A DNA stretch of 35,677 nt from Roseateles toxinivorans (lineage in GTDB: Bacteria > Pseudomonadota > Gammaproteobacteria > Burkholderiales > Burkholderiaceae_C), in assembly GCA_945898095.1 (NCBI GenBank), contig CAMDHE010000043.1:1-35677 (forward strand). The letters run 5' to 3'. Both the position numbers and the translations under genes were made by a program. Positions 6,340 to 14,682 of this stretch are shown in pieces (the stretch's first letter is position 1; each line of letters begins with the position of its first letter). Under the pieces are notes generated by a model. The model was not told the DNA's origin and did not search any database. It worked only from the letters and a program-made list of their open reading frames with translations.

Positions 6340-6888
6340 ATGACTTATTCGAGAAATTTATTTTTCTTCATCGGGTCGGCAGTTGTCTATGCCATCTTCT
6401 CCAAGATCAATCTGGAATTTCTTGACGCCAGCAATGCCTATGGCGCCAACTACATCTGGTTGCCAGCGGGCATCAGGTTGCTGATTGCAATGTTGCTCGG
6501 AGTGGTCGGTGCTGCGGGAGTGGCATTGGCTGCGACCTATCTGGCTTTGCAGAACGGCGGCATCGAGAACTTGCCCAATGCAATGGCCTACGGACTCATT
6601 GCCGGCTTCGCACCCTATCTGGCGCTGCGCAGTTTCATGGTTTTCTTGAATGGTGAATTCAATCTGATCGGGTTGTCCGGCAAGCGCTTGCTGCAGTTGA
6701 CGCTCTGGTCCGCAATGGTCAATGCAGGCTTGAAAAATATATTTTTCCTGGTTGAAGATCCGTCCAGGAATTTTCTTGAAAGCGGGCTCTATATGTTGCT
6801 TGGAGATTGCGTTGGCACGCTGGTCGTGCTTTATGCAATCAAGTCTTCAATCTATTTTTTCGAGCGACTTTCTCGGCTGCAGACCTAA
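6340..6888 (+). CDS. MASE1-like small integral membrane protein, paralog 1
   Basis: Protein of 182 residues with about six hydrophobic helices and no soluble output domain. The segment NYIWLPAGIRLLIAMLLGVVG resembles the W-x-P-x-G motif and following helix of MASE1 sensory membrane domains, though the match is only suggestive. It is clearly homologous along its whole length to the 183-residue protein at 14131: both have LPAG(I/V)RLL, GKxLLQL and GDxVGxLxxLYA(I/V)K. The start ATG follows GCGGAG at good spacing. Downstream lie a predicted ECF promoter and the sigma factor gene, which suggests a role in sensing for that regulatory system. Function unproven. Confidence 0.72.
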   Translation: MTYSRNLFFFIGSAVVYAIFSKINLEFLDASNAYGANYIWLPAGIRLLIAMLLGVVGAAGVALAATYLALQNGGIENLPNAMAYGLIAGFAPYLALRSFMVFLNGEFNLIGLSGKRLLQLTLWSAMVNAGLKNIFFLVEDPSRNFLESGLYMLLGDCVGTLVVLYAIKSSIYFFERLSRLQT

Positions 6889-6908
6889 GCTCATTGGGCC
6901 AACAAGCC

Positions 6909-6933
6909 TGACCTTTTCGCCGCCGACCTGTCT
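6909..6933 (+). promoter_or_regulatory. Candidate ECF-type promoter, site 1 (upstream of the ECF sigma gene)
   Basis: TGACC at 6909-6913 and GTCT at 6930-6933 with a 16-bp spacer containing GCCGCC. The same arrangement and nearly the same bases recur at 11746 and 13992. It starts 21 bp after the MASE1-like stop and ends about 70 bp before the sigma factor start. A TGAC-type -35 with a GTC-containing -10 suits an ECF sigma factor, suggesting autoregulation. Confidence 0.6.
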
Positions 6934-7002
6934 ATTGCAAGTGAGACGGCCGATGCGGCCGCTCGGGGGCTGATAATCTGCGCAGGCAAAAACGACGATC
7001 GA

Positions 7003-7581
7003 ATGAACGAAGAAGAGATCATCAAATGCATTTGCATTGGCGGTAGGTCTCGGGACGTTGCCGTCAAGACGCTGTACTACGACCATGCCCAGTTGATGCT
7101 GCGCTTTTTTGCGAGCCAGGGGGCCTCGGCCGACGAGGCCCGGGACATCTTGCAGAACACCATGGTCAAGATCGTCCGCAGCGCTGCCAGCTTCAATGGT
7201 GGTGGTGCGGCCAAAGCCTGGTTGTGGCAGATCGCCCGCAACTGCTTGCTCGACTTCCATCAGCAAAACTCCCGCGTGACCATGCGCGAAGTGACCGTCA
7301 TTCCCGAGAAATGGGCCGAGCTGGTCGAAACGACAGCAGCGCCGCAGGTCTGCAGCGCTGCGATGGACATCGATGCCTGCGTGGCGGCCGGCCTTCTGGC
7401 GTTCAGTGCTGACATGCCTGAGCGTGCTTTCGTCCTGGGCCTGCAGATGGACGGACTGAGCATCGATGCGATCGGTCTGCAGATCGGCCGCAGCATCGCC
7501 GCGACCAAGGAATACCTGTCCCAATGCCGTAAAAAAATCCAACCCTTCATCGCTCATTGCGCTGATCTCTTGAGCAACTGA
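7003..7581 (+). CDS. ECF-type RNA polymerase sigma factor
   Basis: Protein of 192 residues with the two ECF domains only. Region 2 spans about residues 20-90 (LYYDHAQLMLRFFASQGASADEARDILQNTMVKIV, then AKAWLWQIARNCLLDFHQQ, the core-binding and -10 recognition part). Region 4 spans about 135-185 (MPERAFVLGLQMDGLSIDAIGLQIGRSIAATKEYLSQCRKKI), a helix-turn-helix for the -35 element. The linker is somewhat long and rich in alanine and valine. It is followed after 7 bp by a single-helix membrane protein, the usual place for an anti-sigma factor, and preceded by a candidate ECF promoter. The opposite-strand neighbour is a TPR-CHAT protein. The ECF call is secure; the stimulus is unknown. Confidence 0.9.
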   Translation: MNEEEIIKCICIGGRSRDVAVKTLYYDHAQLMLRFFASQGASADEARDILQNTMVKIVRSAASFNGGGAAKAWLWQIARNCLLDFHQQNSRVTMREVTVIPEKWAELVETTAAPQVCSAAMDIDACVAAGLLAFSADMPERAFVLGLQMDGLSIDAIGLQIGRSIAATKEYLSQCRKKIQPFIAHCADLLSN

Positions 7582-7588
7582 AGCAAAG

Positions 7589-8167
7589 ATGACGACTGAA
7601 GATCTGAGCGACACCCATTGGCTCGCTGCCTTGGCGGGGCAGGCCGATCCCGCGGCAGACAAGGCTGGCAATCTGCAGGCCTTGGCTTTGCGCCGGGCCT
7701 TGCAGGCGCGCCACCAGCAAATCGAGCAGGACCTGCCGCAAGCCGATGCCGCGCTTTTCGAGCAATTGCAATTCCGCTTGCGCCGCGAGGGCTTGATGAA
7801 GCCGCCGCTATGGCAGCAACTGCCGGTCTGGGGCTTGGCGGCTTCGCTGCTGCTCGGCGTTTCAGTCTTGCTGCAGCAGGGCGGCTGGTTGGGTGCCGAG
7901 GATGCCGAAACGCTGCGTGGCGGCAGCGATCAAGCCACGATGTTGCTGGTCAACGATCCGGAAGCTCGCCTGGTCGAGTTGCTCGCCGGCCTGCGTGCTG
8001 CAGGCGTCAAGCCGCAAGTCGAGCGGCAAGCTGACGGCCGCATCAAATTGCAAATGGCTGGCGACCCGGCGGTGCTCGACTACCTCGCCAGCCAGCGCAT
8101 CGAGCCGCAGTTGGTCCAGGGCCAAGTCTCGCTGATCCTTGCCCGACCAAAGGCCAAAACGCCGTAA
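7589..8167 (+). CDS. Probable anti-sigma factor (single-pass membrane protein)
   Basis: Protein of 192 residues. The N-terminal part (about 1-75) is helical and charged, with the opening DLSDTHWLAALAGQAD common in anti-sigma-like proteins. One membrane helix follows around residues 78-95 (LPVWGLAASLLLGVSVLLQQ). The remaining ~95 residues would be periplasmic and form a compact domain (LLVNDPEARLVELLAGLRAAGVKPQVERQADGRIKL...). No zinc-binding HxxxCxxC motif is visible. Function is inferred from being 7 bp downstream of the sigma gene, from topology and from size. It probably holds the sigma factor at the membrane until a signal arrives. It converges on the TPR-CHAT gene across a REP cluster. 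Confidence 0.7.
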   Translation: MTTEDLSDTHWLAALAGQADPAADKAGNLQALALRRALQARHQQIEQDLPQADAALFEQLQFRLRREGLMKPPLWQQLPVWGLAASLLLGVSVLLQQGGWLGAEDAETLRGGSDQATMLLVNDPEARLVELLAGLRAAGVKPQVERQADGRIKLQMAGDPAVLDYLASQRIEPQLVQGQVSLILARPKAKTP

Positions 8168-8228
8168 AAAAGCCCAGATGTGCCTTCGCGCCATTCATCC
8201 CGGCCACCCGTACATCCGCCCCGTAACC

Positions 8229-8547
8229 CGACCCGCATTTCGGCCTTCGGCCTCATGACGGGCCAAAAAAATTCGACCTGTAACCCGTCCTGTAGCCCGC
8301 CATGCAGCGCAGCGCAATGCGGGGGAAACCGTGCCAAACCGACCCGCATTCCGGCCTTCGGCCTCATGACGGGCTACAAATAACACGCCTCGTACCCCGC
8401 CCCGTAGCCCGCCATGCAGCGCAGCGCAATGCGGGGCCAAGCTTGCCAAACCGACCCGCATTCCGGCCTTTGGCCTCATGACGGGCTACAAAAAACCTGC
8501 CCCGTAGCCCGCCATGCAGCGCAGCGCAATGCGGGGCCAAGCTTGCC
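8229..8547. repeat. REP/BIME-like cluster of alternating palindromic units
   Basis: Two palindromic units alternate three times. One begins GTAGCCCGCCATGCAGCGCA at 8292, 8404 and 8504 and closes with AATGCGGGG. The other begins GACCCGCATT near 8229, 8341 and 8453 and contains GGCCTTCGGCC or a one-base variant before ATGACGGGC. Spacing is 112 then 100 bp. The array fills the gap between the convergent anti-sigma and TPR-CHAT genes, and its hairpins could end transcription from both sides. Related units occur at 15414-15526. No REP-associated transposase is in the window. Confidence 0.85.
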
Positions 8548-8550
8548 AGC

Positions 8551-11500
8551 CTATTTCCAGTTCCCCATCAAGATGAACGGCGCCCAGTAGAACGGGTGCT
8601 TGTAACGCGGCTTGGCCTGCAGGGCGAGCTGGGCCTGGCGCAGCGCTTCGATCTTGCTCAAATGCAGGGTCTGGCGCTTGCGGTACATGTCGGCCATCAG
8701 GGCGGCGGTGCTCTGGTCGGCCACCGGCCAGAGCGTTGCCAGCACCGCGCGGGCGCCTTGCTGCTGGGCGATTACGCCGAAGCCTTCGATCTCGCGCCCC
8801 TGCTCATCCCGGCCGCCGCCCAGGCCGGTGTCGCAGGCCGACAAGGTCAGCAGATCGACATGGTCGAAGCGGTAGTTCTGCTGCCGGATGTCGCCCAGTG
8901 TCAGCTGTTGCCCGTCGCCCAGCAGCAGAAACGAATTGACCTCGGTGCCCGGGCTGAAGCGGAAATGGCTGGCGATATGCAGCACCGGGAACTGCCGCTG
9001 GCTGACATCTTTCAAGCGCTGCGCGGTGAAGGCGCCATCGAGGTAGACCTCGCCGGCCAAGGCCGCCGATTTGTTGGCAGCCTTGCCTCCATTGCCACCG
9101 CGCACGATGCCCCTGATCTCGGCCTCAACCCCCGGCAGCGGCGCAAACTCGCCGAGCTGGCGCGTCACGCCCAGACCCGCGGCCTGCCATTGCGGCGCCA
9201 CCGCATCGCGCAACCGCTCGCGCGCCACGCTGGTGTAAAGCGGCAGGTTCCAGCGCTGCGCCAGATAGCGCCGTCCATCGTGCAGCGCGCCGAAAGGCAG
9301 GTAGCGCAGGGCACCATCCAGCGACAGCATCACGGTGCGCGCGCCGGCCTGTTCAAGATCCTTGGCGACCGGTGCGATCAGCAACTGGTAGAGCGCCTGC
9401 GCGGCCGGCAGCGGATCCGATTTCGGGTCGCGCAGCAGCCGCCGGAAGGCAGCGATCTGGCGGTTCAAGTCTTTGGCGCTGACCTTGCTGCTGCGCGCCA
9501 GTTGCACGCCCGGGCTGGTCAGCAGCAAGTTGACCTGATCCTCGCTCAGATAGATCTGCAGCAGCAGCGATCCCTGGCCGAGGCCGGCGAGCATGATGCG
9601 CAAATCAGCCAAGGCCTTGACGCTCGACTCGGCCAGATCCACCTGACGCGCCGGCCCCTGGCGCGCAAAGTCCTCGCGCATCGCCGTCATGAAAGCATCG
9701 AAAGCCGCCTGCGCCACCTTCAGGTCGGCCGCCAGGATGAGCTGGCGCTGCTTTTGCTCGGCGCTGAGGCCTTGCTTGCCCAGCTTGAGCAAGCCCTGCT
9801 GCTCCGCGCCGATGGCGGCCACCTGGCCCGAGATCTCTTGATAGCGGCTCATCCACTTTTGCTCGGTCGGGTTATAGCCGATGCGGGTGCGGCCCGGGTC
9901 GACCTCCAGGCTGCGGCGGATGAAGTCGAACTGCTCCTCTTCCTTCAACATGTCGAGCACCATCTGTGCTTCGGGCAGTCGGCCGGCATCGGTCAACGCT
10001 GCCGCCAGGCGCTGGTAAACGGTCGAAACCGAATCGGTATAGCTGCGTAAAGTGGCATTGCTGATCTTTGCCGCACGTTCGCGTACCGACTGAAAAGCGT
10101 TGACAGATTGCTTCAGCAGCGCGATCGCCAGCGGCAGATCACCAATGGCCTGGTGAATATGGGCAAGGCCCGAAAGTGCCAAGGCAGTGCTTGGATGGTC
10201 GGGGCCATAGGCCTCATGGAACACCACGAAAGTACGCTGATGAAAGGGCAGGGCTTCGTCATACCGGCCGAGCATCCGGTAAACGGTAGCCAGGTTGTTC
10301 AGCGTCGATGCGGTATCGGGATGAACCGGCCCCAGGGCTTTTTCGCGAATCGCCAAAGCGCGCAGCAGATATGGCAAGGCCAGCTCATATTGCGCGATCA
10401 GGATATGGGAATTGCCTAGATTGTTAAGACTTGTGGCGGTCAGCGGATGCGATGGCCCCTGGTTCTTCTCGCGAATCGCCAGTGCGCGTTGCTGCAGCGG
10501 CAAGGCCTGCTCGTACTGGCCCAAGGCTGAGTGATTGACCGCCAGATTGTTCAAGGTCATGGCGGTTTCGGGATGACCGGGCCCGAGAACTTTCTCATTG
10601 ATCGCCAGCGCTCGCCTCAGCAGCGGCAGCGTTTGTTCATGCTGGCCCAGCCTGGCATGGGTAAAGGCCAGGTTGAGCAGGTTCTGGGCGGTGACAGCAT
10701 GTTCCGGCCCCAGGACCTTTTCATTGATCGCCAGCGCCCGCATCTGCATCGGCAGCGCTTTTTCATATTGCCCCATCCTGGCATAGCTGATGCCCAGGTT
10801 GACCAGGGTACTGGCCGTGTCAGGATGTTCCGGACCTTGAACCTTTTCGCGAATCGCCAGCGCACGCTGCTGCAAGGGCAAGGCCTTGTCGAGTTGGCCC
10901 AGTGACTTGTAGGTCTGTGCCAGATCACCCAGGATGGCGGCAACGTCAGGCTTCTCGGTGCCGATGAGCCGCTCAGCCATCGCCAGCGCCCGCAAATGCA
11001 AAGGCAGCGCCAACTGATGCTGGCCGAGCATCCCGTGGACGACGGCAAGCAGGTTCAGCCCAAGGGCCAGATCGAGGTGCTCAGGCCCCTGCACAATTTC
11101 CCGGATCGAAACAGCCCGTTGACACAGCGGCAGCGCCGCAGCGTACTGGCCGAGTTCAAGGTGAACCGAAGCCAGACCTTCCAGCATCGCTGCGGTCGTG
11201 GCTTGCCCGGGGCCCAGCGTTTTTTCGGCGGCAGCGAGGGCACGCAAGCTCATCGCCAACGCCTGCTGATTGCGCCCCAGTTTGAGATACAGCGAGCTGA
11301 TCTCATTCAAACTGTCGGCCATCGAAACATGGTCGGCACCCAGTGACTTCTCGCTGATGGTCAAAGCGCGAAGCTGCAGCGCCAGGGCTTGCTCGTAATT
11401 CGCCATGCCGGCTTGTGCGCGCGCCAGCAAGGTCAGCGCTTGAATCAGCTCGGGGCTTTCCTCGCGTGGCAACTGTTCGGCCAGCCCCAAGGCCTGCTCA

Positions 11501-11667
11501 CTGAGGGTGGCAGCCTGCTTGAAATCCCGGCCGTCAAGGGCCGCCTGCCCATCATGCAGCAACCCCTCCAACCCAAGCCCCGCAGCTTGTGCGCAAGCCA
11601 AGCCGGCGCAAAGCAGCAGCCCCAACAGAAAGGCGCTCACCCCTGACTTGTGCCATTTCAGCCTCAT
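8551..11667 (-). CDS. Exported TPR-CHAT (caspase-like) protein
   Basis: Protein of 1038 residues. An N-terminal signal peptide (KWHKSGVSAFLLGLLLCAGLACAQA) points to export. Residues about 45-510 hold around eleven 42-residue tetratricopeptide repeats of the kinesin-light-chain type, with the pattern ALPLQxRALAIxEKxxGPEHPxTAxxLNNLA; the DNA shows this as a 126-bp periodicity. A helical linker follows, then a C-terminal CHAT domain (clan CD, caspase/separase fold). The catalytic dyad is visible as His in LHIASHF (about 901) and Cys in LTLSACDTGLGG (about 945), followed by GARAVLATLWPVAD and the closing PFYWAPFILMG. CHAT proteins are proteases used in cell-death and defence systems and in other regulated cleavage. 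The start at 11667 has GGAG at good spacing; an in-frame ATG at 11703 lacks one. Likely partners are the ECF/anti-sigma pair it faces. Substrate unknown. Confidence 0.9.
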   Translation of the reverse strand: MRLKWHKSGVSAFLLGLLLCAGLACAQAAGLGLEGLLHDGQAALDGRDFKQAATLSEQALGLAEQLPREESPELIQALTLLARAQAGMANYEQALALQLRALTISEKSLGADHVSMADSLNEISSLYLKLGRNQQALAMSLRALAAAEKTLGPGQATTAAMLEGLASVHLELGQYAAALPLCQRAVSIREIVQGPEHLDLALGLNLLAVVHGMLGQHQLALPLHLRALAMAERLIGTEKPDVAAILGDLAQTYKSLGQLDKALPLQQRALAIREKVQGPEHPDTASTLVNLGISYARMGQYEKALPMQMRALAINEKVLGPEHAVTAQNLLNLAFTHARLGQHEQTLPLLRRALAINEKVLGPGHPETAMTLNNLAVNHSALGQYEQALPLQQRALAIREKNQGPSHPLTATSLNNLGNSHILIAQYELALPYLLRALAIREKALGPVHPDTASTLNNLATVYRMLGRYDEALPFHQRTFVVFHEAYGPDHPSTALALSGLAHIHQAIGDLPLAIALLKQSVNAFQSVRERAAKISNATLRSYTDSVSTVYQRLAAALTDAGRLPEAQMVLDMLKEEEQFDFIRRSLEVDPGRTRIGYNPTEQKWMSRYQEISGQVAAIGAEQQGLLKLGKQGLSAEQKQRQLILAADLKVAQAAFDAFMTAMREDFARQGPARQVDLAESSVKALADLRIMLAGLGQGSLLLQIYLSEDQVNLLLTSPGVQLARSSKVSAKDLNRQIAAFRRLLRDPKSDPLPAAQALYQLLIAPVAKDLEQAGARTVMLSLDGALRYLPFGALHDGRRYLAQRWNLPLYTSVARERLRDAVAPQWQAAGLGVTRQLGEFAPLPGVEAEIRGIVRGGNGGKAANKSAALAGEVYLDGAFTAQRLKDVSQRQFPVLHIASHFRFSPGTEVNSFLLLGDGQQLTLGDIRQQNYRFDHVDLLTLSACDTGLGGGRDEQGREIEGFGVIAQQQGARAVLATLWPVADQSTAALMADMYRKRQTLHLSKIEALRQAQLALQAKPRYKHPFYWAPFILMGNWK

Positions 11668-11745
11668 TCGCATCTCCAGGATTTTCATCATTCGCGGCAG
11701 CATCAGTTAATTCAGGATTTTTAGCAAATAAATTAACTTTTAGCC

Positions 11746-11770
11746 TGACCTTTGGCCGCCGGCGGCGTCT
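11746..11770 (+). promoter_or_regulatory. Candidate ECF-type promoter, site 2 (between TPR-CHAT and the Crp-like gene)
   Basis: TGACC at 11746-11750 and GTCT at 11767-11770 with a 16-bp spacer carrying GCCGCC, closely matching sites at 6909 and 13992. It points rightward, towards the Crp/Fnr-type gene about 300 bp away, although it also lies 79 bp from the start of the divergent TPR-CHAT gene. The spacer contains the palindrome GCCGCCGGCGGC. Confidence 0.55.
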
Positions 11771-12076
11771 CTATTGGTGGAGCGACAGGTTTGCTGGCTT
11801 TCGACAGAGATTTTGTTGTCTGGACTGTTCGCCAGAAAACAATGCTGACCTGTTGGACGATAAAAGCTGATATTGTCGAATCAATCATTTTATTGACGAT
11901 ATAAATCGAATGGAACATTTTTTTCATGCCTCGTTGAGACTGGCGTCGTCGCCGGTTGACCTCAGCTCGGAACAGCATTGCTGCATCGGGAACCGGACTG
12001 TTCGCAGGTCGTTCGCCTTGACCCAGTCAAGTTCGATGGCATGAACTGAATCGCCTTGCCCAGGAAAGGCATTGCT
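11771..12076 (+). other. Leader region without a convincing gene
   Basis: This 306-bp stretch follows ECF-like site 2 and precedes the Crp-like gene. It contains an AT-rich part (about 11855-11935). Two short open frames on the plus strand (20 codons from 11841, 44 codons from 11910) lack ribosome-binding sites and recognisable features. If site 2 is a promoter, this would be a long 5' leader. Confidence 0.4.
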
Positions 12077-12859
12077 GTGCTCGCGCAAGGCCTGCTGCGC
12101 CAGATCGGTTTTTCAGAGCCGCGTGTAAGCCAACTGCTGCCCTTGACCGAATTGCGCCAGTTCGAGAGCGGTGAGTATTTTGGCCAAGAGGTGATGGCGC
12201 CGCTGACCTGCATCCTGTGCGGTCTGGTTGGCGCCGGGCAAGTCAGGAAGGACAAGAACGACGAATTCATCCCGGCCAATATCCATGGCCTCGGAACCTG
12301 GCTTGGCGGTGGAGAAATGCTTAATCCTCCGATTGCCGGGCAGGACTATTTGTGTCTGGCTCCGACCCGCTTGCTGATCATTCCGCAACAAGTGGCGCTC
12401 GAAGCCTTCGAAAAGGATGCCGAATTTTCACGCTATATCGCACGCCAGCAGGCTTGGCGCAAGCATTGGCAAGCGGATATGCGATACCTGTTGACCGCAG
12501 CTGATCCGGCGGCGCGAGTCGTTTTCGGCTTGGCCATGCTGGCCGAAGCCCTGCATTGCAGCTATTCGCATCTGGCTGTCGATTTGCCTGACAGTCCATT
12601 GGTGATTCCGGTCAATCAAACCTTGCTGGCGAACCTCTGCTGTGTATCGCGCGGGGTGTTTTCAAGCACCGCACAGCAGTTGGCTGACGCAGCCGTTCTG
12701 CAAGTCAATTACGCATCCACCCGGTTGCTCTCGACCAAGGTCTGGATGAATCTTTCCAGGCAATACCGGCAAGACAAAGCCGCCTGCGGTCAACTGTCGA
12801 TCGAGCAGATGTTGTTGTTGATGGTGCGGGGCGCGAGCAGCAAGGCCTTGCCTTCGTGA
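12077..12859 (+). CDS. Crp/Fnr-family transcriptional regulator
   Basis: Protein of 260 residues laid out as an N-terminal cyclic-nucleotide-binding-like beta roll (about 10-115, with LLPLTELRQFESGEYFGQEV, GLGTWLGGGEMLN and LAPTRLLIIPQQVALEAFEKD), a dimerisation helix, and a C-terminal helix-turn-helix (about 185-215, IPVNQTLLANLCCVSRGVFSSTAQQLADAAVLQVN). The cAMP phosphate-binding motif of Crp is not evident, so it may sense something else or only mediate dimerisation. The start is the GTG at 12077 with AGGAAAGG seven bases upstream; a TTG at 12056 would add seven residues. It is probably transcribed from ECF-like site 2, which would make it a downstream regulator in the sigma circuit. Confidence 0.78.
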   Translation: MLAQGLLRQIGFSEPRVSQLLPLTELRQFESGEYFGQEVMAPLTCILCGLVGAGQVRKDKNDEFIPANIHGLGTWLGGGEMLNPPIAGQDYLCLAPTRLLIIPQQVALEAFEKDAEFSRYIARQQAWRKHWQADMRYLLTAADPAARVVFGLAMLAEALHCSYSHLAVDLPDSPLVIPVNQTLLANLCCVSRGVFSSTAQQLADAAVLQVNYASTRLLSTKVWMNLSRQYRQDKAACGQLSIEQMLLLMVRGASSKALPS

Positions 12860-13059
12860 TCGGCTGAATTCATGCGGCAAGAAGCGGTGGTGGGTGGAAT
12901 TGACGTCAGCAGTAGGTTTCTTGACCTGCGACAAAAATAAAAGTGGGTCAACTGTTCGTTGGCGAACAGAGGTGGTCATGTGAGGGGTTGACATTACATA
13001 CCATCAGTCCATGTTTGATTTCATAAATGAAGATAATTTTTTTAACAGTGGAGTTTATT

Positions 13060-13398
13060 ATGCAAAAGTCAGTAATTTTATTGATCTCAGCGCTAGTAGT
13101 GTTGGGCGGTTGTGCAACAAGGCCTGAGTCAATTCGTGCATCGTTTGTTTCGCATGAAAAGTATATCGACCTGGATTGCTCATCCTTGGTTACTCGCATG
13201 ATAGACACCCGTGCAGAATTGGATAAGTTCTCAAAAATGCAGGATACAAAAGCGAATGTTGACGCAGCTACAGTTTTCCTTGTGCTGATTCCAGCAAGCA
13301 AACTGGCAGGGGATCACGAGGGTGATGTGGCTCGGCTAAAGGGCGAAGTCGAGGCCGTAAGCACTGCACAAATCAAGAAAAAATGTAAATTACTCTGA
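13060..13398 (+). CDS. Small predicted lipoprotein
   Basis: Protein of 112 residues. The N-terminus MQKSVILLISALVVLGGCAT is a lipoprotein signal with the lipobox LGGC, so Cys18 would be lipidated. After that comes a conserved-looking domain: YIDLDCSSLVTRM, DKFSKMQDTKANVDAATVFLVLIP, GDVARLKGEVEAV and a C-terminal IKKKCKLL, with two further cysteines that could pair in the periplasm. The layout resembles a family of short uncharacterised lipoproteins with the ending ARLKGE...I-x-K-K-C. The ATG at 13060 follows GTGGAG; a start at 13027 would spoil the signal peptide. The gene is noticeably more AT-rich than its neighbours, which hints at separate acquisition. Function unknown. Confidence 0.75.
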   Translation: MQKSVILLISALVVLGGCATRPESIRASFVSHEKYIDLDCSSLVTRMIDTRAELDKFSKMQDTKANVDAATVFLVLIPASKLAGDHEGDVARLKGEVEAVSTAQIKKKCKLL

Positions 13399-13443
13399 GT
13401 CAAGTTGGTGCGATTCGATATCAATCGTTGGCCGGCGCGTTAG

Positions 13444-13605
13444 GGATGCTCTGCATAACCCCTCACGGCTTGTGCTAGCCCGGCCTCGGGCGGTCTGCGG
13501 CGTTGCCTTTCTTGCCAATAGCACGCGCTATTGGCCGCAAAAAGCGCCTTGCATCCCATCCCGATCCGCGCTGCACAAACTCGCGTTGAGTTATGCAGAG
13601 CATCC
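13444..13605. mobile_element. MITE-like inverted-repeat element, copy B (complete, 162 bp)
   Basis: The only complete copy. It starts with GGATGCTCTGCATAAC and ends with the inverted GTTATGCAGAGCATCC form (one mismatch near the inner end). It is flanked on both sides by TTAG (13440-13443 and 13606-13609), a 4-bp target duplication fitting the YTAR preference of IS5-group transposases. A perfect internal hairpin has arms at 13514-13522 and 13527-13535. No coding capacity. Orientation is opposite to copies A and C. Confidence 0.85.
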
Positions 13606-13727
13606 TTAGCTTTTCTTGCGAAAATTGCAATTAAAAAACCATCTCGGGTGGCCTAGCGATCGCCTACCCGCCTTAAATTGGCGGCCGAAGGTATGTCAAA
13701 GTAATTGATATTTTTCAACGTGAGTAT

Positions 13728-13842
13728 CCTTCGACGAGCTCAGGACGGAACGATATTCAATCTTGAAAAAGTAGTCGGCCATAGTTGGTTGATCGGTGGT
13801 TTGTTGACAACTGCCCTTCGACAAGCTCAGGACGAACGGTTG
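13728..13842. repeat. Pair of dispersed CTTCGAC(A/G)AGCTCAGGAC repeats
   Basis: CCTTCGACGAGCTCAGGACG at 13728 and CCTTCGACAAGCTCAGGACG at 13817 are the same short interspersed sequence, 89 bp apart and in the same orientation. This motif is common in intergenic regions of many proteobacteria. The surrounding region 13610-13990 has no convincing gene. Confidence 0.65.
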
Positions 13843-13991
13843 CTTATTGGCCGGCCAGACCTGGCTATTGGGATGTCTGCAAGCGGCATGGCTGGCTGGT
13901 TGGCCAAAGCAATCGAAGTCGAGTTCGCTTCCCAGCCCCGAAGGCGCACCACTTCGCTCCCCCCTTCCCCCAAATATTTCACGCTTTGCCC

Positions 13992-14016
13992 TGACCTTTT
14001 GCCGCCAGCGGCGTCT
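13992..14016 (+). promoter_or_regulatory. Candidate ECF-type promoter, site 3 (upstream of MASE1-like paralog 2)
   Basis: TGACC at 13992-13996 and GTCT at 14013-14016 with a 16-bp spacer containing GCCGCC, as at 6909 and 11746. The start of the second MASE1-like gene is 115 bp downstream. Identical spacing in three sites makes chance resemblance unlikely. Confidence 0.6.
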
Positions 14017-14130
14017 CTACTGCAGGATTTCTTGTAAAAACCTGGGCGAATCAACCCGCTGCCGGGTAGGACTTCAAGAAATCAACTTTTTATTGCTCAC
14101 TGCAAGTCGAACTCGGATTGGGGCCATTGC

Positions 14131-14682
14131 ATGCCATACGTCAAAAACACCGCGATCTTTGTGCTGTCGGCGATCGCCTATCTGGCCTGCTTCAAGCTCA
14201 ACAGCTGGATGTTCTCGGCCGAATATGCGCAGGGCGTCAACTTCATTTTCTTGCCAGCGGGGGTGCGGTTGCTGGTGTTCTTGCTGTTCGGCCTGCTGGG
14301 ATGCACCGGCATCGCGGTGGCGACGATTTACCTGGCCTGGCAGGAAACGACCGGGTTGAGCGATTTGCCGGGGCTGCTGCTGGTCGGCGCGATCTCGGGC
14401 TATGCGCCGTGGATAGCGGGCTGGGTTTTCAGCCGGGTCGAGACGGTTGCGGTCGACCTCAATCAGATGAATGGCAAGCAGCTGCTGCAATTGGCCTTGC
14501 TCTCATCCCTGATCAGCGGGTCGATGATGCAGGTGCTGCGGCTGTCCGGAGCGCCGGTGGAGGAGTTCCTTTCGACCGCGTTTTTCATGGCCGTGGGTGA
14601 CTTTGTCGGCATCTTGCTGACGCTCTACGCGGTCAAGTTCTCGATCGAGATGGTCAGCAGGATGTTGCGCTTGAGGGTTTGA
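14131..14682 (+). CDS. MASE1-like small integral membrane protein, paralog 2
   Basis: Protein of 183 residues with about six membrane helices, homologous end to end to the protein at 6340. Shared landmarks are NFIFLPAGVRLLVFLLFGLLG (NYIWLPAGIRLLIAMLLGVVG in the paralog), NGKQLLQLALLSSL and VGDFVGILLTLYAVKFSIE. No soluble domain is attached. The ATG at 14131 lacks a strong Shine-Dalgarno but gives the same N-terminal layout as the paralog (MPYVKN versus MTYSRN). It lies behind ECF-like site 3, so expression under the local sigma factor is plausible. The two paralogs bracket the sigma/anti-sigma/TPR-CHAT/Crp-like genes, suggesting duplication within one system. Function unknown. Confidence 0.72.
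   Translation: MPYVKNTAIFVLSAIAYLACFKLNSWMFSAEYAQGVNFIFLPAGVRLLVFLLFGLLGCTGIAVATIYLAWQETTGLSDLPGLLLVGAISGYAPWIAGWVFSRVETVAVDLNQMNGKQLLQLALLSSLISGSMMQVLRLSGAPVEEFLSTAFFMAVGDFVGILLTLYAVKFSIEMVSRMLRLRV

Follow-up and report, generated by a model that had tools for sequence, protein, structure and literature searches.

The described systems closest to the one considered here are CASP/Craspase, the RpoE/RseA pair and the ECF54 group. CASP/Craspase combines the TPR-CHAT protease Csx29, the sigma inhibitor Csx30 and CASP-sigma, which resembles sigma factors of the extracytoplasmic function (ECF) type (PMC10028731, PMC9729208). We have analysed a 35,677-nucleotide (nt) stretch of Roseateles toxinivorans DNA (assembly GCA_945898095.1, contig CAMDHE010000043.1, positions 1 to 35,677 of the forward strand; hereafter, the window), in which a TPR-CHAT gene, a gene for a candidate sigma inhibitor and an ECF sigma gene likewise share one locus. 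Three matched sites in the window are probably promoters (−35 CCTGACCTTT, N13, −10 GTCTMT) of a regulon that would be read by the sigma factor encoded at 7003–7581 and held by the membrane anti-sigma candidate encoded at 7589–8167, with the signal possibly passing through the TPR-CHAT protein.

The CASP/Craspase literature proposes that sigma-binding motifs lie within the locus and that the defence genes are autoregulated, and the same may be proposed here. However, no CRISPR (clustered regularly interspaced short palindromic repeats) effector was recognised among the genes read, though no search for cas genes was made; the inhibitor candidate is a small membrane protein, the profile of which retrieved no Csx30 chain from the PDB sequences; the TPR-CHAT protein carries a putative signal peptide; and the targets lie on several contigs. 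The likeness to RpoE/RseA (PMC1804206, PMC2893595, PMC10028731) resides in the pairing of an ECF sigma factor with a membrane anti-sigma, here a candidate, although, at an E-value of 1, its profile retrieved no RseA chain from the PDB. Sigma-E promoters have a −35 element GGAACTTTT and a −10 element GTCAAA (PMC1804206); those described here share the geometry, the GTC of the −10 element and a similar −35 element ending in CTTTT, but the latter begins with CCTGAC rather than GGAA. In the case of ECF54, CHAT, carboxypeptidase and subtilase proteins are reported in the genetic context (PMC8999054); here too, the ECF sigma factor adjoins a CHAT protein, whereas it is followed by a membrane anti-sigma candidate. 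An ECF regulon with such a candidate is of a known kind, and what is unusual is its combination with a putatively exported TPR-CHAT protein and with some defence-type targets. In the literature searched on ECF sigma factors with CHAT domains, phage defence, DarTG or defence islands, no title or abstract beyond CASP/Craspase and the ECF review described such a system, most subscription journals lying outside the coverage.

The probable promoter motif in the window and the genome

The pattern TGACC-N16-GTCT occurs three times on the forward strand of the window, at 6909–6933, 11746–11770 and 13992–14016, with exactly 16 base pairs (bp) between TGACC and GTCT in every case. In 100 dinucleotide shuffles, the mean was 0.12 matches and none (0/100) reached three, which confirms the matched sites and fixed spacing of the original prediction. 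In full, the sites are:

6907–6939, forward strand: promoter site 1, with the −35-like CCTGACCTTT at 6907–6916, a spacer of 13 bases (N13) and the −10-like GTCTAT at 6930–6935, ahead of the sigma gene
11744–11776, forward strand: promoter site 2, pointing away from the TPR-CHAT gene and toward the Crp-like gene
13990–14022, forward strand: promoter site 3, 5′ of the second MASE1-like gene

The upstream block CCTGACCTTT is read in each, as had been noted, and the sites do precede the genes for the sigma factor, a Crp-like regulator candidate and the second of two MASE1-like proteins, GTCT ending 69, 285 and 114 nt, respectively, before the start codon. The proposed downstream block, GTCTNTA(T/C)TG, fits only the second and third sites, whereas site 1 reads GTCTATTGCA and has two mismatches to the extended pattern searched. 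Similarly, the GCCGCC core of the spacer is common to the three window sites but is missing from the three other strict sites of the genome described below. In the relative G017, the counterpart of site 1 is CCTGACCTTTTTCCCGTCGACCTGTCTATTGC, site 2 is identical over all 33 bases and the counterpart of site 3 is present on contig C158.

As a genome probe, the two-block core was too loose and was rejected, giving 30 matches (17 + 13) versus 33 (20 + 13) for a reversed control. The fuller motif, CCTGACCTTT-N13-GTCTMT, is by contrast enriched genome-wide: its strict form, CTGACCTTY-N13-GTCT, is found six times against zero for the control, and the sites are spread over four contigs, so the regulon is not local, contrary to what had been supposed. 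In a family sample of 250 genomes (own included), 32 have any strict match; the 249 others total 34, with three in the next-highest genome, and at their rate the Poisson probability of six or more is 8.0e-9. Moreover, when the spacer was varied from N3 to N23 in four sigma-bearing genomes (our own, G000, together with G017, G007 and G1016), 45 matches were obtained, versus 25 over all spacings for the reversed control; N13 accounts for 16 of the 45 (six, five, two and three, respectively), the other 29 being distributed over the 20 remaining spacings.

Over 13 sites, the two boxes contain 17.0 and 8.2 bits of information and the 13-base spacer 4.4 bits; these sites were picked as different promoters because they match, such that the values are descriptive, and the set excludes the counterparts in G017, G016 and L044 as well as the C107 copy. 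Since the spacer is nearly free and the boxes are near-invariant, GCCGCC is incidental, and it was rejected as part of the motif. Before promoters were counted, we left out as probably coding the one-mismatch matches common to G1016, G1017 and G1018 (CCTGACCTTCGACAAG...) and a match within a reading frame on G1018:C75; G1018:C226, G1016:C24, C305 of G017 and the one-mismatch matches of the scan of 18 genus genomes, except a divergent one in G007, were also left out.

A crude coding-overlap test placed 24 of the 29 background strict matches examined (from the 34) inside an open reading frame (ORF) of 150 amino acids (aa) or more, versus two of our six, and these two overlap, respectively, a frame antisense to the sigma gene and a frame that is out of register with a MASE1-like gene. 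Across all 20 sites tested, eight fall in such an ORF, including those of L046 and L174; there, the overlapping frame is that of the TPR-CHAT protein itself, so either the site overlaps the start of the gene or the gene truly starts further downstream.

The proposal of −35/−10 pairs for an ECF factor is thus supported by the excess of the full motif (the two-block core alone giving none), by the location of the sites between genes and their direction toward them, by the preferred spacing and by recurrence in sigma-bearing relatives. What comparison bears out is a motif that is in excess, prefers one spacing and recurs together with the sigma gene, and an ECF promoter set, wider than first proposed, appears a sound reading of these sequences.

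Sites in relatives and proposed unlinked targets

Searches for the sigma factor found it in 3 of 399 genomes of the order at an E-value of 1e-40 and in 4 of 369 genomes of the class at 1e-28, our own included in both; in most genomes listed, no more than eight candidates each were scored, a limit under which relatives may go unnoticed. Among 18 genomes of the genus, CCTGACNTTY-N13-GTCTNT without mismatch occurs six times in G000, four times in G017 and twice in G007, the three that carry the sigma factor at an identity of at least 49%; G002, G009, G012, G016 and G006 have one match each, and the other 10 genomes none. G017 (sigma identity 94%) keeps the three window sites together with a C70-type site, C305 being the fifth of its strict matches. 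In G007 (49%), one site lies 51 nt 5′ of four same-strand genes, the last of which encodes a TPR-CHAT protein, and a one-mismatch site divergent from it precedes an ORF upstream of the sigma gene. The second perfect site of G007 is 40 nt 5′ of a gene for DarT, with its macrodomain partner directly behind (Pfam DarT, E = 1.1e-34; Macro, E = 5.2e-15; DarT and DarG in PADLOC). The setting of this sigma locus (L047:7623-19627) is defence-island-like: besides DarTG, it includes a caspase-like gene and a gene for a reverse transcriptase with matches to defence-type models.

Beyond these 18 genomes, the sigma factors of L044, L045 and L046 are 66, 65 and 62% identical to ours, and their genomes hold three, one and one perfect sites, compared with zero for the reversed control even at one mismatch. 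Sites in G1017 and G1018 (the latter being the L046 genome) are divergent from a TPR-CHAT gene and lie 111 and 121 nt, respectively, 5′ of a response regulator gene; similarly, one site in G1016 precedes a winged-helix-like gene that is divergent from a TPR-CHAT gene. Additionally, G002, G009 and G012 present CCTGACGTTT-N13-GTCTCT upstream of, and directed at, sigma genes with 27–31% identity, the distance to the sigma start being ~112 nt in G009. Each of the five relatives with a close sigma gene thus has such sites, as do the upstream regions of more distant sigma genes in three further species, which again indicates that the regulon is not local. At L044:9185-9655, the TPR-CHAT gene beside the anti-sigma gene seems to have been lost: what is left is the site and a short segment that, by eye, resembles the 3′ end of the gene. 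The same genome has a TPR-CHAT gene at another locus.

Three sites of our own genome are remote from the window. That on contig C133 is 144 nt 5′ of the gene for a 1512-aa ankyrin protein, the N-terminus of which (MFFGLFGGEKKR; L111:1540) is resembled by a short frame starting MVFGLFGGEKKR 3′ of the C107 site of G1016 (L173). The C132 site lies 366 nt 5′ of a gene for a protein of >2100 aa with ALTTAQ and RTX repeats (Pfam); divergent from this gene is one that is Doc/Fic-like by eye (L109:7341-7733), with weak matches to PADLOC candidate models. The C70 site is 301 nt 5′ of a gene for a 137-aa protein, followed by genes for a 136-aa protein, a 1199-aa HEPN/SNF2 helicase and a sacsin-type ATPase. 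The helicase is DrmD-like in PADLOC (E = 5.8e-112) and falls below the NCBIfam cut-off for DrmD (322.5 versus 610 bits), such that DrmD-like is as far as the assignment goes; the sacsin-type protein matches TmtA models (E = 6.7e-42). The 137-aa protein occurs in 1 of 198 genomes, namely, its own, and has a 143-aa homologue in G1016 (56% identity over 133 residues), where a site lies 710 nt 5′ of the homologue and a gene for an NAD-dependent DNA ligase-like protein follows. A further site in G1016, a CCTGACGTTT variant, is 382 nt 5′ of a DUF4011 gene (PADLOC PDC-S37, E = 1.9e-88).

Around the C70 site, a 215-bp block is 84% identical in two genomes (L110:7581-7795 and L124:394-607). It begins ~30 nt before the site, and the part 3′ of the site folds with a z-score of −2.25; it was found in 2 of the 18 genus genomes, with no further homology to the fetched C70 stretches. 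Possibly, it represents a small RNA or a promoter cassette.

The sigma locus and a putative release mechanism

The remaining features of the locus are as follows:

6340–6888, forward strand: first MASE1-like membrane protein, 182 aa (MASE1, E = 6e-7; 29.3 bits versus a cut-off of 29.8)
6972–6977, forward strand: GATAAT, a possible housekeeping −10 element of the sigma gene, by direct reading
7003–7581, forward strand: ECF-type sigma factor, 192 aa (Pfam Sigma70_r2)
7589–8167, forward strand: membrane anti-sigma candidate, 192 aa, from position and architecture
8551–11703, reverse strand: TPR-CHAT protein, 1050 aa (Pfam CHAT, E = 1.2e-61; TPR_12, E = 1.3e-125)
11777–12055, forward strand: the long leader that separates site 2 from the Crp-like gene (RNA fold z-score −1.71, weak)
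12056–12859, forward strand: Crp-like regulator candidate, 267 aa, TTG start (HTH_Crp_2, E = 0.021, weak and below the cut-off)
14131–14682, forward strand: second MASE1-like membrane protein, 183 aa (MASE1, E = 0.0014, below the cut-off)

The sigma factor matches PF04542 (Sigma70_r2) with an E-value of 4.5e-10 and 39.6 bits (cut-off 24), and, when it is compared with solved sigma factors, its best profile match covers positions 2–192, as would be expected of an ECF factor built from sigma2 and sigma4 only; no separate match to region 4 was found in Pfam. The protein encoded next to it at 7589–8167 has, as a membrane anti-sigma should, a single transmembrane (TM) segment by hydropathy: N-terminal helices lead to a hydrophobic segment at residues ~78–97, after which come an Arg-Gly pair and a small beta-alpha-beta-beta-alpha-beta domain. 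It gave no significant match in Pfam or NCBIfam, only one insignificant one. Its structural model (mean pLDDT, the predicted local distance difference test score, of 64) is confident only for residues ~111–190, and this low-confidence model found no PDB match at an E-value of 0.001. Distant members of the family keep the order of sigma gene followed by the gene for a TM-type protein, and in G593, a TPR-CHAT gene, in two frames in that assembly, directly follows this pair. In an alignment of 11 anti-sigma-type proteins (own included; some further ones found were left out), an aligned Arg follows the TM segment in nine, as Arg-Gly in seven, and those of L042 and L037 have an Arg-Gly nearby but out of register.

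The TPR-CHAT protein begins with a hydrophobic segment, a putative signal peptide by hydropathy alone, and contains the CHAT motifs HIASH and SACDTG, which, by analogy, would provide the catalytic His and Cys; H-(I/V)-ASH and SAC(D/E) are present in all four TPR-CHAT sequences read, own included. Site 2, its leader and the start of the coding sequence (503 bp) are 91% identical in G017. The two MASE1-like proteins are 38% identical, and no site was found upstream of the first. Two stretches nearby have matches elsewhere: ~170 bp at window positions ~13437–13612 match dozens of places in G016 and G017, as a dispersed repeat, and the intergenic segment at ~8288–8480, toward which the anti-sigma and TPR-CHAT genes converge, is matched at several further positions in the relatives.

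We infer that the 7003–7581 sigma factor reads the sites, that the 7589–8167 protein is its anti-sigma, that the CHAT protein cleaves the latter and that a signal starts the process. In the resting cell, the sigma factor would be held at the membrane by the anti-sigma; a signal would release it, perhaps after processing by the putatively exported TPR-CHAT protein; and the freed sigma factor would transcribe its own operon and the genes for the Crp-like regulator and the second MASE1-like protein, as well as the unlinked small-protein/SNF2 helicase/sacsin operon and the genes for the giant ankyrin protein and the ALTTAQ/RTX protein. Cleavage of the 7589–8167 protein by the TPR-CHAT protein is suggested by analogy with Csx29, Csx30 and CASP-sigma (PMC10028731). 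Csx30 is reported to be cut after a leucine (PMC9729208), and cleavage at Arg-Gly would therefore have no precedent in the accounts cited.

Alternative explanations and the reach of the regulon

A number of results weigh against this regulon, or against parts of it. The expectation that the motif would precede orthologous sigma genes is borne out only in part: in L044, L045 and L046, nothing immediately upstream of the sigma gene scores above the limit for a site, whereas the genomes concerned keep their three, one and one perfect sites, some of which diverge from a TPR-CHAT gene. GATAAT is found 5′ of the sigma gene in the window and in these three loci (4/4, by direct reading), which suggests a housekeeping promoter and, therefore, that sigma autoregulation is not universal. 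Among the distant sigma loci L034–L042, six of nine lack a convincing site and three have one; the fetched stretches of G530, G726, G786 and G918 show no convincing site before the sigma gene, and G593 has two weaker candidates, one toward the sigma gene and one toward a divergent gene. Both G016, the assembly of which has a contig end near the locus, and G006 have one site and no sigma match at an E-value of 1e-10. Among ORFs of at least 90 aa, none follows the C124 site of G017 on its strand for ~5.5 kilobases (kb); on the opposite strand is a gene that is SbcC-like by eye. Several leaders are long (285, 301, 366, 382 and 710 nt), such that those gene assignments are less sure. Finally, of the six site-bearing loci away from the sigma and CHAT genes (C70, C132, C133, DarTG in G007, and C112 and C58 in G1016), three (C70, DarTG and C58) have clear defence-type genes, a share uncorrected for background and so a lead rather than a result.

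These observations leave some room for other explanations. It is unlikely that, although the promoters are genuine, another ECF sigma factor of this genome reads them and the neighbouring sigma gene is just one of its targets: sigma factor and promoter are linked by co-occurrence only, and the missing sites before three orthologous sigma genes and the site in G016 would fit, but all six genomes with a close sigma factor have perfect sites, up to six of them, compared with none in 10 of the 15 other genus genomes, and the distant sigma genes of three other species bear the same kind of site. Less probable still is that the sites are operators of a DNA-binding regulator, such as the Crp-like protein, which would recognise a GCCGCC/GGCGGC palindrome. 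Site 2 is near the Crp-like gene, sites 2 and 3 carry GCCGCC-N-GCGGC-like spacers, and site 2 of G017 and site 3 of the window are alike over ~52 bp (81%); however, neither site 1 nor any of the three strict sites elsewhere in the genome has the palindrome, the near-invariant boxes of the 13 chosen sites are asymmetric around a nearly free spacer, and the spacing and direction of the sites fit a promoter rather than an operator. Chance similarity or a dispersed repeat is largely refuted, and we give it scarcely any weight: the frequency of the short core, the other repeats in the neighbourhood and the somewhat longer likeness of sites 2 and 3 are outweighed by the full-motif counts, the spacing preference and the Poisson figure, and, by eye, the sequences flanking the six sites otherwise differ. 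For individual sites (C70 in G000 and C124 in G017), service to a small RNA instead of the next protein gene is a possibility of lesser but real weight, which the fold of the 215-bp block, its conservation in G017 and the lack of a same-strand gene soon after the C124 site would favour; conversely, the block is confined to two genus genomes, and in G000 and G1016 a site is followed by related proteins of 137 and 143 aa.

On the ECF regulon that we prefer, a bolder extension may be placed, tentatively: a CRISPR-free counterpart of CASP, in which an exported TPR-CHAT protease would cut the anti-sigma at the conserved Arg-Gly just outside the membrane and so free the sigma factor for a dispersed anti-phage regulon, the promoter having been placed before different defence operons (DrmD-like/sacsin, DarTG and DUF4011) in different species. 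DarTG is ~7 kb from the G007 sigma locus, and C107 looks like a second copy among the site loci of G1016. The match of C133 to a PADLOC candidate model is mainly through its ankyrin repeats, that of C112 is weak, and the C132 protein, which was outside the PADLOC scan, matches ALTTAQ and RTX repeats in Pfam. Alternatively, the regulon may respond to surface stress, with no link to phages.

To our knowledge, little is understood about the joint switching-on of scattered defence genes. Given a sigma factor whose promoter code can be read, its regulon could be listed in any genome that carries it, and the promoter would reveal unknown defence genes, such as that for the 137–143-aa protein found behind the site in two species. 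Moreover, if the proposed cleavage is true, the anti-sigma would offer a natural TPR-CHAT substrate to test outside CRISPR.

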